Virus record (IMG/VR): IMGVR_UViG_3300034072_002211 | Location: 62,001-126,000 of that record | Source: a virus | DNA length: 64,000 bases | Direction: 5' to 3' (one strand) | Shown here: positions 29,344-36,596 of the stretch, piece after piece | Layout: each line of letters opens with the position of its first letter | Numbering within the stretch: position 1 is the stretch's first letter | The notes under the pieces: model-generated | Seen by the model: only the letters and a program-made list of their open reading frames with translations | The model's database searches: none | Told to the model about the DNA's origin: nothing | Made by a program: the position numbers and the translations under genes

Positions 29344-30186
29344 ATGACTTTGTATTCCATGTGGTGCTTAACCGGCCGCATGGAATACACCTACCTCACA
29401 CCTCCCGAGAAGGCAAACGATGGCTGGATGGGTCATCGTATCAAACTCTTCTTGAAACAAGATCGCTTTGCTGAGTTTACGACCTTTCTCGAAACCTACT
29501 GCGGTGAGAAAGGCAAAGATTGGCGACTAGAATCTCGATCCAAGAAATCCTTTTGGATATGGGGTGATGAACCGGCCAAGATCCGTTTCAAGCACAAGAA
29601 GCACGCTGCCCTGCTGAAGCTTCAGTGGGTTGAGGATACTGATCCCATGGAAGACACATGGAATCAGCTGAAGAAGATGACGCTCAACTATCCCACGCTT
29701 GGGTCAATCCGACCAACTGGTAAGAGCATGGCCAGCCAGGCGATCGGCCGTGGTATCCGCAACACCCACGTGACCACAGTGGCTCCTCCCACAAATCCAA
29801 ACCCGCTTCCCTGGTATGGGTCGATCGGCGATCCCTTCTGGACCCTCTACCAAAGCAAAGCCCTCTCCCGTAAGTCATACAGCAAGATGATGGGTTTGGA
29901 CTATGACTCCATCTACCTCGACACCGAGGCCAGCATCAGTCCTTACTGGCTCAAGGAGAACCTTGAGGACAAGGGCCATACTGTCATGACCACTCAGGTT
30001 CTCAAGGAACGTCTCAATGGAACTGGATCAAAGTCAACCACCGTATGCTGGTCGCCAGAAACACTACGTCTACGGGATGAAGTTCTACCTGACTCCGAGC
30101 AGGCAAGCGGACTTAGAGAAGGTGCTGGAAACATTCCAGATCACCAAATACCGGCTGACGGTGGAGAGTCAGCTTCGGGGGACTGA
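29344..30186 (+). CDS. FKLxWG-family protein with long C-terminal extension
   Basis: A 280-residue protein. Residues about 30-105 form the family module: a helix with FAEFTTFLETY, strands around WRLESR and IRFKH, then HAALLKLQW. Unlike the others it continues for 175 residues, through a Pro/Thr-rich linker and a region with LDYDSIYLDTEASISPYWLKENL. The last 57 codons overlap the next gene in another frame by 170 bases, too long to be ordinary. Either the true end is earlier by frameshift or the overlap is real. A programmed or assembly frameshift near 30017 should be tested. Confidence 0.6.
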   Translation: MTLYSMWCLTGRMEYTYLTPPEKANDGWMGHRIKLFLKQDRFAEFTTFLETYCGEKGKDWRLESRSKKSFWIWGDEPAKIRFKHKKHAALLKLQWVEDTDPMEDTWNQLKKMTLNYPTLGSIRPTGKSMASQAIGRGIRNTHVTTVAPPTNPNPLPWYGSIGDPFWTLYQSKALSRKSYSKMMGLDYDSIYLDTEASISPYWLKENLEDKGHTVMTTQVLKERLNGTGSKSTTVCWSPETLRLRDEVLPDSEQASGLREGAGNIPDHQIPADGGESASGD

Positions 30187-30496
30187 TTTGCCTGAAAAGG
30201 CATTCATCAGCTTTCGTATCAAGAAGCAGGCAATGTTGTTCAAGATCGTGTGGATCCCGTGTGATCCACCGTCTCCTAGCGTCGTTCTGCCAATTATTCG
30301 ACGAGTCATGCCCAGCATCATCGCGCAGGATATCATCGGAGTTTCGCCCATGACCGGCCCAGTCAGCGACATCTTCACGCTGCGGGTCAAATACGCAGAT
30401 TCGCAGGACCAGGCTTCAACACCTGTATCTCCGTACGAAGTCCGCTCTGGCGATGAACCTGGTGAAGAGCCGGACGCGGACCGCACCTCTGAGTGA
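30017..30496 (+). CDS. FKLxWG-family protein
   Basis: A 159-residue protein. Residues about 20-85 are the family module: MKFYLTPSRQADLEKVLETF, strands TKYRLTVES and AFISFRIKK, then QAMLFKIVW. A 70-residue tail rich in Pro, Val and Ser follows. It overlaps the preceding family gene by 170 bases; an in-frame later ATG (MKFYL) would remove half of the overlap. Two adjacent family modules at this locus suggest tandem duplication. Confidence 0.65.
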   Translation: MELDQSQPPYAGRQKHYVYGMKFYLTPSRQADLEKVLETFQITKYRLTVESQLRGTDLPEKAFISFRIKKQAMLFKIVWIPCDPPSPSVVLPIIRRVMPSIIAQDIIGVSPMTGPVSDIFTLRVKYADSQDQASTPVSPYEVRSGDEPGEEPDADRTSE

Positions 30497-32643: not shown

Positions 32644-33171
32644 ATGGAACCGCTTGACTGGTTGGTAGTGGCTACGTTCCTTTTCGTTGGCTATTGCGCC
32701 TCTGGTCTCGCGGGCAAGCATCTCCACTGGCTTGTGAATCGTCGCCGCGTCGTTCATGGAGACATGGTCGGCGGCGACGTCGTTGGAAGGTATCACAACG
32801 TGGGCACAATCAACATCTCGGGCCGGTCGTTCTCCGGCAATAACATCACGATTATCAACGATCGCATCTATGTCGACGGCAAGGACATCACGGATGATGC
32901 TGGCGAAGGCGCCAAGGGTATCGTGAAGATTGAGATCACTGGCGACGTCAAGCTGGTCAACTGCGACCGCAGCGTCTCGATCAAGGGCAATGTCAACGGC
33001 GATGTGAAGTCGGGCGGTTCTCTGAACTGCGACAACATCACCGGCAACGCGGAATCCAACGGTTCCATGAACGCCGGCAACATCGGCGGCAATGCCCGTT
33101 CGGGTGGAAGCATGAACTGCGGCAAAGTCAGCGGATCCGTTACGGCAGGAGGAAGTGTTCGACATGGCTGA
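32644..33171 (+). CDS. membrane-anchored bactofilin/DUF-type beta-helix protein
   Basis: A 175-residue protein. Residues about 8-25 are a membrane helix. The remainder is a short-period beta-solenoid: Gly-Asn rungs (GDMVGGDVVGRYHNV), then units close to NGDVKSGGSLNCDNITG, SNGSMNAGNIGG and RSGGSMNCGKVSG. The rung spacing, about 15-17 residues, and NG/GG turns resemble bactofilins, which polymerise under the membrane. Here it is only a pattern match. The next gene overlaps by 8 bases. Confidence 0.6.
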   Translation: MEPLDWLVVATFLFVGYCASGLAGKHLHWLVNRRRVVHGDMVGGDVVGRYHNVGTINISGRSFSGNNITIINDRIYVDGKDITDDAGEGAKGIVKIEITGDVKLVNCDRSVSIKGNVNGDVKSGGSLNCDNITGNAESNGSMNAGNIGGNARSGGSMNCGKVSGSVTAGGSVRHG

Positions 33172-33400
33172 AAAGAAACCCTACGCATACCGCTTGGAGC
33201 GCATCGTTCCCAAGGACGGGTTCTTCATGGCAACGGCTGCGCTGATGACCTGCGCCGTTACTGGCAAGGTGCTGAGCACGTCTGGTGGTGGTGGTGAATA
33301 CATCAGCCCTGAGGTCCGACAGGTGATCCTCAAGGACCAGGAAGTCCAGGAACTCATCAAGCGCAAGATCGCAGAACTCGACGCGCATCCTATTGCTTGA
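33164..33400 (+). CDS. small protein with one hydrophobic segment
   Basis: A 78-residue protein starting at ATG 33164 (GGAGG about 12 bases upstream). Residues about 15-38 (GFFMATAALMTCAVTGKVL) form a weak membrane segment, followed by a Gly-rich hinge and a C-terminal helix. The TTGACA of a promoter for the downstream leader overlaps the stop codon. It may partner the beta-helix protein encoded just upstream. Confidence 0.6.
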   Translation: MAEKKPYAYRLERIVPKDGFFMATAALMTCAVTGKVLSTSGGGGEYISPEVRQVILKDQEVQELIKRKIAELDAHPIA

Positions 33401-33424
33401 CAAACAGGATCAGCCTGCTATAGG
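33397..33424 (+). promoter_or_regulatory. sigma70-type promoter for the 33431 leader
   Basis: TTGACA (33397-33402), a 16-base spacer and TATAGG (33419-33424), followed by the structured leader. It overlaps the end of the upstream gene. The GCTATAGGGTGA part resembles GCTATGGTGA upstream of other genes. Confidence 0.6.
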
Positions 33425-33430
33425 GTGATC

Positions 33431-33563
33431 TCGAGACAAAAAAAAGGAATTCGTCATGATTATATGGTGTCTAGATCGGAGCTCTGCAGGGCGCTAATCC
33501 ACGACACCATAGTTTTGGCGTAATGGACCACCCTGCGAGGTATTAACCTTTCAGGGTGGTTTT
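33431..33563 (+). promoter_or_regulatory. riboswitch-like leader RNA before the nucleotidyltransferase-like gene
   Basis: The leader has an A-tract, then hairpin 1 with stem ATGGTGTC (33464-33471) and GACACCAT (33503-33510). Hairpin 2 pairs ACCACCCTG (33527-33535) with CAGGGTGGT (33552-33560) and is followed by TTT, so it can act as a terminator. Its 3' arm also contains AGGGTGG, the only ribosome-binding-site-like sequence before ATG 33566. The loop of hairpin 1 holds GCAGGG (33486-33491), which can pair with CCCTGC (33531-33536), opening hairpin 2. The two structures are mutually exclusive. No known riboswitch family matches by eye. Confidence 0.5.
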
Positions 33564-33565
33564 CC

Positions 33566-34456
33566 ATGGGCGGAAATGCGTTTCCGGGCCTGCCAATGGT
33601 GCGGGTCCGAAGGGAGGATGTTGCCTCCACTGTAGATCATGTTGTTACCGTAATGAACATGCCGGGGTTCACTCGCGAGTATGCGATGAACAACCTCATG
33701 GGCAGCGCGGGCAAACAGGACGACTCGGGCGATCTCGACTTCGCAATGAACAACGCTCCGGCGAGGTTCGTTGGTGAGGAAGTGTTGCCAGTCTTTGACC
33801 TCAAGGTTTTTGCGGAGAGGGCACGAACTGTTCTGCCTCAGGGACACGTGAACACAAAGACCCTCAAGGGTGGTCAGTTTCAGACTGCCTTCCCAGTCGC
33901 GGGTGATCCCGCGAAGGGTTACGTTCAGGTCGACTTTGTTGCGGGAAATCCCGAGTGGCTGAAGTTCAGCCACTTCTCACCAGGTAAGGACTTCAGCCCT
34001 TACAAGGGTGTCTTGCTGTCAACGATGCTGGGTGTTCTGGCCAAGATGCGTAAGGATTTTGAGCTGGAAGACGAGCAGGGTCGTTACGCCAGGGTGGGCC
34101 TCCGCTTCGACTTGGAGAAGGGCCTCTACAGGCAGTGGAAGCTTCGCAAGCGCGATGGCCAGGGTATGAGTGTTGTGACCGCCGATGAATTTGAGACTGC
34201 GGTTGCAACTAGCCCGCGCTTCGTGCGTTTGTCGAGTGTCACGGTGCCTGAGGAGGTATTGAGACTGCTGTTTGGGACACCAGTGGACCCGGAGGAGGTC
34301 AACACCTTTGAGAAACTGGTGGCCAAAGTTCGTGAGGTTCTTCCTGAGCGTTTCGAAGAGGCACGAGAGCGTTTCCTCGAAGCATTCATGCGTAGTGCCG
34401 GTAAGAACGACTACACGTTGGAAGAGGTCGCCTCAGCCAGCGTATGGGAACAGTAA
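33566..34456 (+). CDS. putative nucleotidyltransferase-fold protein
   Basis: A 296-residue protein. The opening MGGNAFPG, then GDLDFAMNN near residue 52 and a later VQVDFVAGNPEW near residue 117, matches the pattern of phage MGGxAF-type nucleotidyltransferases: a Gly-Gly turn, GDxD pair and a third strand aspartate. The C-terminal half is helical. It is expressed behind the structured leader at 33431-33563, so translation is probably regulated. The substrate is unknown; tRNA, nucleotide or protein targets are all possible. Confidence 0.55.
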   Translation: MGGNAFPGLPMVRVRREDVASTVDHVVTVMNMPGFTREYAMNNLMGSAGKQDDSGDLDFAMNNAPARFVGEEVLPVFDLKVFAERARTVLPQGHVNTKTLKGGQFQTAFPVAGDPAKGYVQVDFVAGNPEWLKFSHFSPGKDFSPYKGVLLSTMLGVLAKMRKDFELEDEQGRYARVGLRFDLEKGLYRQWKLRKRDGQGMSVVTADEFETAVATSPRFVRLSSVTVPEEVLRLLFGTPVDPEEVNTFEKLVAKVREVLPERFEEARERFLEAFMRSAGKNDYTLEEVASASVWEQ

Positions 34457-34773: not shown

Positions 34774-34810
34774 GAGCCTCGTTGGCAGATCGAACCATCT
34801 GCGAGGCTTC
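34774..34810 (+). promoter_or_regulatory. stem-loop upstream of the FKLxWG array
   Basis: GAGCCTC and GAGGCTT pair with one wobble, enclosing GCAGAT/ATCTGC with loop CGAACC. It lies 23 bases before ATG 34833. The loop contains GATCGAA, also present near the ligase and AT-hook genes. A control element or a processing site is possible. Confidence 0.35.
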
Positions 34811-34832
34811 TGTGACCCACAGCAAAGGTGTT

Positions 34833-35201
34833 ATGGCTTTCCTCGAGGAATGGCAGAAGGCCATCTTCGAGTCTTATACTGATGACAAACCTTTTGTGAA
34901 CCACTATGGGCGCAAGGGTTGGGAAAGCAAATACGATCCCAAGTTCACCAAGGGCACAGCATATCAGCCCCGTAGAACCCCTCCGGACGTCAGCTCGCTC
35001 CCAGAGCGGAAGTGGGTAGAGCCACGCTACCCCAGAGACGCCGAGGAATCTCTGGAGTTCTCTAGGGACATGAAAGCCTGGCTGGTGGACCGCAAGGTCA
35101 AATATCAGATTTGTGAAGTCATGTTGGACAAGCGTCCTGCCACGGTCTATCTGTTCAAGAAGGCCAATGATGCGTTGATGTTCAAACTGACTTGGGGATA
35201 A
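34833..35201 (+). CDS. FKLxWG-family protein, array member 1
   Basis: A 122-residue protein and a textbook member: SRDMKAWLVDRKVKY (helix with WL, then strand), ICEVMLDKRPATVYLFKK (second strand pair) and ANDALMFKLTWG stop. The N-terminal 60 residues are a variable, basic, Pro-rich region. Start ATG 34833 has AAAGG upstream; a TTG at 34782 inside the hairpin is rejected. First of five overlapping family genes. Confidence 0.8.
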   Translation: MAFLEEWQKAIFESYTDDKPFVNHYGRKGWESKYDPKFTKGTAYQPRRTPPDVSSLPERKWVEPRYPRDAEESLEFSRDMKAWLVDRKVKYQICEVMLDKRPATVYLFKKANDALMFKLTWG

Positions 35202-35202
35202 T

Positions 35203-35556
35203 ATGAGCCGCAGAAACAAGGCAAAGACAAAGTCTGCCCCATTTAAGAGTTTTCGCATTCGAGGACGCGGAACTCGGATCCGTCGAATTCCTCGTCGCTT
35301 CAGGAAGCCCAACTACTGGCATCAGCACGACGACCGGACCTACAGCAAAATTGCGATCCGCGATGTTGAGTTGCTCTGGCTTGATCAGTATGCTCCAACC
35401 GCAGTTGTATCGTGGGAGAAGGTTCCGGGTTGTGAAACCATGCCACTCTATAAGCAGGGCAAGTGGGACGGCATGGCCCACTTTGTGCGCTTTACCAAGG
35501 AAGATCTGAGCAACGCTATCATGTTCAGAATCGTGTGGTGGAATACCCGTGCGTAA
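35203..35556 (+). CDS. FKLxWG-family protein, array member 2
   Basis: A 117-residue very basic protein: the first 45 residues have 18 Arg or Lys in a patch that could bind nucleic acid. The module then runs VELLWLDQY, VVSWEKVPG, AHFVRFTK and ends SNAIMFRIVWWNTRA. It starts 1 base after the previous stop. Confidence 0.8.
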   Translation: MSRRNKAKTKSAPFKSFRIRGRGTRIRRIPRRFRKPNYWHQHDDRTYSKIAIRDVELLWLDQYAPTAVVSWEKVPGCETMPLYKQGKWDGMAHFVRFTKEDLSNAIMFRIVWWNTRA

Positions 35557-35836
35557 GAGTCCTATCAACGTCGAGTGTAAGATAGATGATCTGAGCCTCG
35601 ACGCACTGGAATGGCTCGACAGTGACGCACAGGATCTCTCTTGGATCCACCGTAACTGGCGCATTTGGGAAAGCCCTGCGACAGAGCATGAGCTCACCTA
35701 TGCTGAACTCATGGAACGCAAGCACTTCATGAAGAACTATGGCACGTGGCGTCATCCGGTCAGGAAAAGATCGGTTGACGTGATCCGCTTCGCCAGTAAT
35801 GCGGATGCTATGTATTTCAAACTGAAGTTCCTATGA
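35549..35836 (+). CDS. FKLxWG-family protein, array member 3
   Basis: A 95-residue protein with a GTG start overlapping the previous gene by 8 bases. Acidic N-terminus (DDLSLDALEWLDSD), a helix ELMERKHFMKNYG and the terminal strand-helix DVIRFASNADAMYFKLKFL. The final Trp and Gly of the family are replaced by Phe and Leu. Confidence 0.75.
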   Translation: MRKSPINVECKIDDLSLDALEWLDSDAQDLSWIHRNWRIWESPATEHELTYAELMERKHFMKNYGTWRHPVRKRSVDVIRFASNADAMYFKLKFL

Positions 35837-36069
35837 TCAAGCACACCGAGTCCATTCGCTCCGATCTCATCGTGAGCAAGAACCGTGCCCGTAAGGCAAT
35901 CTTGAGCGGTGTGGGAACCAGCACCACCGTAGTGCAGGAAGCGCGTGACTGGTTGCGGACTCAAGCCAAGCATCACTGGTATTTCTATGAGTGCCAGGAG
36001 ACTGGCAAGCTTCGCATTGCGTTTCATGACAAGAACGATGCGATGATGTGGAAGCTCGCATGGCACTGA
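35833..36069 (+). CDS. FKLxWG-family protein, array member 4
   Basis: A 78-residue minimal member: VQEARDWLRTQAKHHWYFY, then KLRIAFHDKNDAMMWKLAWH. The shortest clear version of the module, useful for defining its limits. ATG overlaps the previous stop (ATGA). Confidence 0.8.
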   Translation: MIKHTESIRSDLIVSKNRARKAILSGVGTSTTVVQEARDWLRTQAKHHWYFYECQETGKLRIAFHDKNDAMMWKLAWH

Positions 36070-36377
36070 TGAAGCCTGGCTTCTACATGCTGGCTAAACA
36101 TGGCCCATGGGAGAGGCACGTCAGAGTCAAAGGAACTGACGCTATGAACGAAGCCGTGATGTGGTTGGCTCGCCAGGGCAAGGCAGAGAACATTGACTTT
36201 GAGGTTTTGATCGAAAAGATCGAGCATAAGAACACTACGAAGACCGTTGTGCCAATCACAATGAAGAGGCCCAGCGGTCGAACTGCCACGATGAACCAGG
36301 CAGTTCAGTCCGTTGAACCCATCATGTTCTTCAATGACGCGACCCTGGCCAGCTATGTCAAGCTGACTTGGGGTTGA
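36069..36377 (+). CDS. FKLxWG-family protein, array member 5
   Basis: A 102-residue protein from ATG 36069 (TGATG overlap; ATG 36060 is in frame). The helix is NEAVMWLARQGKAE, strands follow (FEVLIEKIEHK, VVPITMK) and the end is MFFNDATLASYVKLTWG. It closes the array and faces the IF-1 gene tail to tail, with one base between them. Confidence 0.78.
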   Translation: MKPGFYMLAKHGPWERHVRVKGTDAMNEAVMWLARQGKAENIDFEVLIEKIEHKNTTKTVVPITMKRPSGRTATMNQAVQSVEPIMFFNDATLASYVKLTWG

Positions 36378-36596
36378 TCATTTGTAGCGGAAGGTGATGC
36401 GGCCTTTAGACAAGTCATAGGGCGTCATTTCTACCTCGACGGTATCAGCCACGATGACCTTGATGTTGTTCTTACGCATCTTGCCTGAGATGTGACCAAT
36501 GATCACCATCTTGTTCTCAAGCTCAATACGAAACAGTGCGCTGGGAAGAACCTCGATTACTCGGCCCTTCATCTTTAGTGTGCCTTCTTTTGACAT
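36378..36596 (-). CDS. infA: translation initiation factor IF-1
   Basis: A 72-residue protein that aligns over its full length with bacterial IF-1: [38 protein letters not shown] and [18 protein letters not shown] are near-identical to the E. coli blocks. IF-1 binds the 30S A site with IF-2 and IF-3. AAAGAGAG precedes the ATG and GCTAAATAG (36623-36631), within a perfect palindrome, is 27 bases upstream. Phage-encoded IF-1 may bias initiation to phage mRNAs; that is inference. Confidence 0.95.

Follow-up and report, generated by a model that had tools for sequence, protein, structure and literature searches.

A conserved leader with a mini-ORF and a buried ribosome-binding site, possibly a translational attenuator, precedes a nucleotidyltransferase-like gene in giant phages

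Most known attenuators that are read through a leader peptide control amino acid operons or genes for antibiotic resistance. In the case of plasmid repZ, the leader ORF ends within the stem that covers the Shine-Dalgarno (SD) sequence, so that a translating ribosome melts this stem. Attenuators of the erm/cat type, such as that of ermB, combine a mini-ORF, a hairpin covering the SD or the start and an alternative helix that has one strand in common with it; for the full-length ermB leader the repressing hairpin is the sole fold in silico, and only truncated transcripts reveal the other helix (PMC11264731). The repY/repZ region of the IncI plasmid ColIb-P9 (Asano and Mizobuchi 1998, to the extent that it is summarized in PMC8383071) carries a mini-ORF and a loop whose sequence is complementary to the strand masking the downstream initiation site. 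An antisense RNA competing for the loop is part of this type of switch. The leader that we describe here shares these parts with both systems, apart from the competing antisense RNA, which is not known here. It differs from the erm/cat examples in being located in a phage before a nucleotidyltransferase-like gene, with no sequence relation shown, in keeping codons 1-5 of its mini-ORF whereas the C-terminus is not kept, and in possessing a separate large hairpin (hairpin 1) that hides one strand of the alternative helix (strand A).

The window, a stretch of 64 kb out of a 277-kb virus record, carries this leader between a small ORF ending at position 33400 and the ATG of a 296-aa ORF (Table 1). 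With its conservation, its structure, its buried SD and its mutually exclusive pairing, it does look like the regulated leader that an original prediction from the sequence had proposed. It is present in all eight close relatives found, which are IMG/VR contigs of jumbo or giant soil phages, the largest 465 kb long; these contigs (L002-L007, L010 and L011) form our comparison set and provide seven distinct sequences, the leaders of L010 and L011 being identical. Pairwise identity among leaders is 70-89%. Covariance model and pattern searches place one copy in each genome, only upstream of the nucleotidyltransferase-like gene, and candidates for second copies in the same genomes came down to antisense matches to the hairpin 2 palindrome and matches by chance. 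When the leader was sought elsewhere, one sequence pattern returned the same eight contigs only, and a looser pattern returned 12 further contigs with no credible covariance-model match, just a 16-nt fragment (E = 2.9). A search of the literature found no paper on such a leader.

Table 1. Positions in the window of the leader elements and of the gene downstream
Feature	Positions	Strand	Remarks
Promoter-like TTGACA-16-TATAGG	33398..33425	+	Read from sequence; directly upstream of leader
SD of mini-ORF, AAGGAA	33444..33449	+	AAGGA-like in nearly all relatives
Hairpin 1 (P1)	33452..33520	+	MFE; outer helix 33452-33456/33516-33520, main 33463-33471/33503-33511, apical 33481-33484/33489-33492
Mini-ORF (putative leader peptide), MIIWCLDRSSAGR and stop	33456..33497	+	ATG invariant in 8 relatives
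Strand A, GCAGGG, hairpin 1 apex	33486..33491	+	Invariant in window and 8 relatives
Hairpin 2, SD-sequestering, CCACCCTG/CAGGGTGG plus inner helix	33528..33559	+	-21.0 kcal/mol; main helix 33528-33535/33552-33559; kept in all relatives
Strand B, CCCTGC, in 5' arm of hairpin 2, complementary to A	33531..33536	+	Invariant
Buried ribosome-binding site of main gene, AGGGTGG	33553..33559	+	Invariant in relatives
296-aa Pol-beta-superfamily nucleotidyltransferase-like protein	33566..34456	+	GSAGKQ..SGDLDFA; D56, D58, D123 invariant

For the 171-nt leader region, the folding energy is -65.2 kcal/mol, compared with -48.2 +/- 4.2 kcal/mol for shuffled sequences (z = -4.1); none of the 200 shuffles folds as well. 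For the structure as a whole, 91.7% of cells pair, against 33-50% in slid controls. Hairpin 1 is located where it had been predicted, with an outer helix in addition to the main helix of the MFE structure, and shows compensatory changes at four P1-helix pairs (10 cells with both sides changed, versus 3.1 in shuffles). Hairpin 2 likewise occupies its predicted place, and AGGGTGG is indeed the only ribosome-binding-site-like sequence before the main ATG. Seven of its pairs never vary among relatives; since this hairpin hardly varies at all, it is supported by conservation and not by covariation. In the fold, the unpaired probability of the main-gene SD is approximately 0, and the duplex of AGGGTGG with the anti-SD amounts to -7.2 to -8.0 kcal/mol. 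The complementarity between GCAGGG and CCCTGC is found exactly where it was claimed. Invariant across relatives are the mini-ORF ATG, GCAGGG, CCACCCTGC, AGGGTGG and the main ATG, and the final C of CCCTGC is also invariant, even though several members leave it unpaired in hairpin 2.

The promoter reported by the original prediction is present as read, and a TTGACA/TATAGA-like pair is found at the same place in L002, L003, L004, L010, L011 and the named phage Phosso, but is absent in L005-L007. A consensus promoter scan does not pass this sequence because it requires T as the sixth base of the -10 hexamer. After the promoter-like pair comes AAAAAAAAGGAATTCGTCATG, whose ATG opens a mini-ORF that the prediction had overlooked. 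The SD of this mini-ORF lies 6-7 nt before the ATG, 6 nt in the window, is weaker in L002 and forms anti-SD duplexes of -4.0 to -7.3 kcal/mol. The mini-ORF spans the 5' half of hairpin 1; its early codons are kept as MIIWC (MIYWC in L010) and the rest diverges, up to a stop that is UGA when it falls at codon 8 and UAA when it falls at codon 14. In L002, L003 and L010, strand A lies past the stop and is hence non-coding. The apical letters GATCGGCAGGGTC are kept under both stop positions, and are therefore conserved as RNA rather than as peptide; the window keeps just GCAGGG and part of the remainder.

Our favored interpretation, to which we assign a probability of about 0.52, is translational attenuation, the leader being read by ribosomes that translate the mini-ORF. 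The parts of such a device would be a translatable mini-ORF with its SD, as read from the sequence, a hairpin burying the main-gene SD, and a mutually exclusive helix chosen by ribosome position, the latter as computed for truncated transcripts. The locus had been called riboswitch-like. However, because a conserved mini-ORF stretches over hairpin 1, the position of the ribosome is a likelier input than a ligand, and a riboswitch in the ligand-sensing sense, which explains fewer of the parts than a mini-ORF attenuator does, is the less likely reading.

In the window alone, the 6-nt match between the apex and the 5' arm is unremarkable (p ~0.12 by length, 0.016 by energy), and it becomes significant because it is invariant in 8 of 8 relatives. 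The original prediction was to be abandoned if related phages lacked GCAGGG/CCCTGC, and both strands are retained in all eight relatives of the comparison set. The A:B duplex is worth -12.9 kcal/mol in the window (-14.0 in L002 and L004), whereas hairpin 2 holds strand B at -19 to -21 kcal/mol. If ribosomes are placed on the mini-ORF and folding is computed at equilibrium, hairpin 2 prevails in nearly all states, and the switch must therefore be kinetic: A:B can have an effect only as long as the 3' arm of hairpin 2 has not been made, or if a ribosome or factor holds A and B together. The earlier proposal that loop pairing frees the binding site is upheld as far as mutually exclusive pairing is concerned, but at equilibrium a duplex of about -13 kcal/mol cannot open the site against a hairpin of about -21 kcal/mol, so that a further step, kinetic or driven by a ribosome, is needed that the prediction did not include.

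To scan ribosome positions, we placed a ribosome at each codon and folded the nascent RNA, taking the edge of the ribosome to lie 16 nt from the start of the P codon, the value for E. coli. In transcripts that are still without the 3' arm of hairpin 2, the partition function gives a probability of A:B pairing of 0.94-1.0 with codons 2-6 in the ribosomal A site, in 8 of 8 sequences, and this value drops at codon 7-8. With a ribosome at the mini-ORF stop, the probability is at most 0.04 or strand A is sterically covered; with no ribosome it ranges from 0 to 0.64 and is below 0.5 in 7 of the 8 sequences. As for ermB (PMC11264731), folding in silico shows the alternative helix only in the absence of the last strand.

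Strand B can pair with A and, alternatively, with the main ribosome-binding site within hairpin 2. If the leader is an attenuator, a ribosome translating the mini-ORF to its stop would cover or displace A, and on an empty mini-ORF hairpin 1 would hide A; in both of these off states B would fold with the ribosome-binding site. In the on state, a ribosome dwelling at codons 2-6, which include the conserved UGG-UGU/UGC (Trp-Cys), would open hairpin 1 and expose A, which could then pair with B during transcription and leave the ribosome-binding site free. Slow decoding of the first mini-ORF codons would thus lead to synthesis of the nucleotidyltransferase, and candidates for slowing the ribosome include a shortage of amino acid or tRNA, a drug, the nascent peptide or a phage factor. 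The Trp-Cys codons also form helix P1b and are therefore no proof of amino acid sensing; because of this overlap, their conservation may be structural.

The nearest rival to this attenuator is a pseudoknot activation like that of repZ in IncI plasmids, in which the apical loop of a folded hairpin 1 would pair with B and open the ribosome-binding site, with the mini-ORF or an antisense RNA modulating the process. The two arrangements have in common the mini-ORF, hairpin 1 with its conserved loop, and the complementarity between this loop and the 5' arm of the stem that covers the SD. Nevertheless, we consider a switch of this kind unlikely. The phage mini-ORF does not end inside the SD-covering stem, but ~30-50 nt ahead of hairpin 2 (33497 compared with a stem beginning at 33528 in the window, and earlier in L002, L003 and L010), and half of A sits in the apical stem, so that just 3-5 nt are free for loop pairing; both features set the leader apart from ColIb-P9.

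Alternatively, translation might be constitutive and low, with hairpin 2 acting as a static brake that is lifted when ribosomes from the mini-ORF reinitiate or when translation is coupled to it, and with no real switch. The dominance of hairpin 2 in computed equilibria is in keeping with this idea, as is contig L009, which has no full leader and merely a hairpin-2-like CACCCTG/CAGGGTG. We find this quite improbable, since it accounts neither for the conserved hairpin 1 nor for the invariance of A outside the coding sequence in L002, L003 and L010. It is also conceivable that the apex of hairpin 1 binds a protein, for example the nucleotidyltransferase itself, or a small molecule, which would amount to feedback control or a ligand riboswitch. 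The 15-nt apex (GAGAUCGGCAGGGUC in relatives) is invariant in 7 of the 8 distinct leaders, which exceeds what A:B pairing needs, but the window deviates at several apex positions outside GCAGGG and the conserved mini-ORF would go unexplained. Moreover, an Rfam search of the leader found no family at gathering score and nothing credible with permissive filters, in agreement with the earlier remark that no known riboswitch class is evident, and we give apex binding little credence.

A T-box leader was considered and rejected. The T-box motif AGGGUGGNACCGCG starts with AGGGTGG too, a likeness that is probably a coincidence; the leader is far too short for this class, contains no ACCGCG, has no Rfam match and continues after AGGGTGG with TTTTCC and not as in AGGGUGGNACCGCG. 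That hairpin 2 is an intrinsic terminator, making the leader a short RNA or a transcription attenuator, is hardly credible: its strong GC stem is followed here by the TTTT of the predicted T run, but this falls short of the ~5 or more T of such terminators, is TTTA in half of the relatives and comprises just three or four T's in most members, the hairpin is not picked up by a terminator scan, and the conserved main ATG lies only 6-7 nt downstream.

Sinorhizobium phage Phosso (469 kb) is the only named kin that matches clearly, and its gene 181 encodes a homologue of the nucleotidyltransferase with 59% protein identity. The leader of this gene has TTGACA/TATATG, AAAGGAAACGGTCATG and, at the same place, a mini-ORF encoding MWRIYGITLHL followed by a stop. 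Its hairpin 1 is a perfect stem in different letters (GGUC..UGGCGC/GCGCCA..GACC), and its SD-covering hairpin is formed by CCUGUU/AACAGG. Because Phosso keeps the SD, the mini-ORF and both hairpins in other letters, the layout is preserved while the sequence is mostly different. The leader covariance model gave no match to Phosso, whose leader is too diverged, and the candidate A:B counterpart GGGUGG/CCACCC is not above chance. Contig L008 (the same as L072), which is nearest to Phosso by protein (78%), is without the leader and has an open AAGGA instead. In L009, all that separates the stop codon of the upstream gene from the ATG of the nucleotidyltransferase homologue (L009:4940-5004) is the hairpin-2-like element, and the end of the upstream gene may stand in for hairpin 1.

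The nucleotidyltransferase-like character of the product, as originally proposed, is borne out by a catalytic motif and a Pol-beta-like predicted fold. Foldseek searches with the predicted structure (pLDDT 84) show a likeness to Pol beta/mu with probabilities mostly of 0.9-1.00 and E ~1e-3, at TM scores of just 0.3-0.37, and an uncharacterised Atu_ph07 protein reaches a TM of 0.76 to the model. A GS motif, a DxD and a third Asp in a fold modeled as Pol-beta-like would place the protein in this superfamily. Pfam, PHROGs and NCBIfam profiles and a PDB sequence search gave nothing useful for the 296-aa protein, which seems to represent a distinct family of the superfamily without a Pfam, PHROG or NCBIfam model match. 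In this it differs from RlaP and the CCA-adding enzyme of jumbo phages (PMC7824862), with which it shares the GS..SGDLD motif, the Pol-beta-like fold and the jumbo phage setting. It has been proposed that jumbo-phage enzymes of this superfamily repair damaged RNA by restoring bases (PMC7824862), and by analogy our guess is that the 296-aa protein might do the same. A second, diverged nucleotidyltransferase paralogue (MGG.AF start) occurs in Phosso (L059) and three large relatives (L069-L071), with a homologue in Atu_ph07 (L058); all of these start directly after other sequence, without the leader described here.

Several neighboring genes were also noted. A repetitive protein matching phrog_3163 is encoded at 32644-33171 (+), and in Phosso a gene annotated as a polymer-forming cytoskeletal protein precedes the corresponding nucleotidyltransferase gene at a distance of a few genes. 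A 72-aa ORF at 36378-36596 (-) resembles translation initiation factor IF-1; the neighboring Phosso gene XYS97333.1 is annotated as IF-1, and one gene of Atu_ph07 as translation initiation factor 3. A run of small ORFs with similar C-termini (MFKLTWG, MMWKLAWH, MYFKLKFL, YVKLTWG), at 30017-30496 and 34782-36377 (+), apparently forms a tandem paralogue family.

One speculative extension of the attenuator reading, to which we would give only slim odds, is that the leader serves as a sensor of translation stress for the phage. Host defence would deplete or destroy tRNAs, the resulting pause would flip the leader, and an RNA-repairing nucleotidyltransferase would be made. If true, the gene would serve counter-defence and be switched on by the very damage that it mends. 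The leader offers defined strands (A, B and C) and codons for mutation. If it is a conserved attenuator guarding a single nucleotidyltransferase in giant phages, ribosome pausing would be an input that phages use, and if the enzyme repairs RNA, the leader would tie translation stress to repair.
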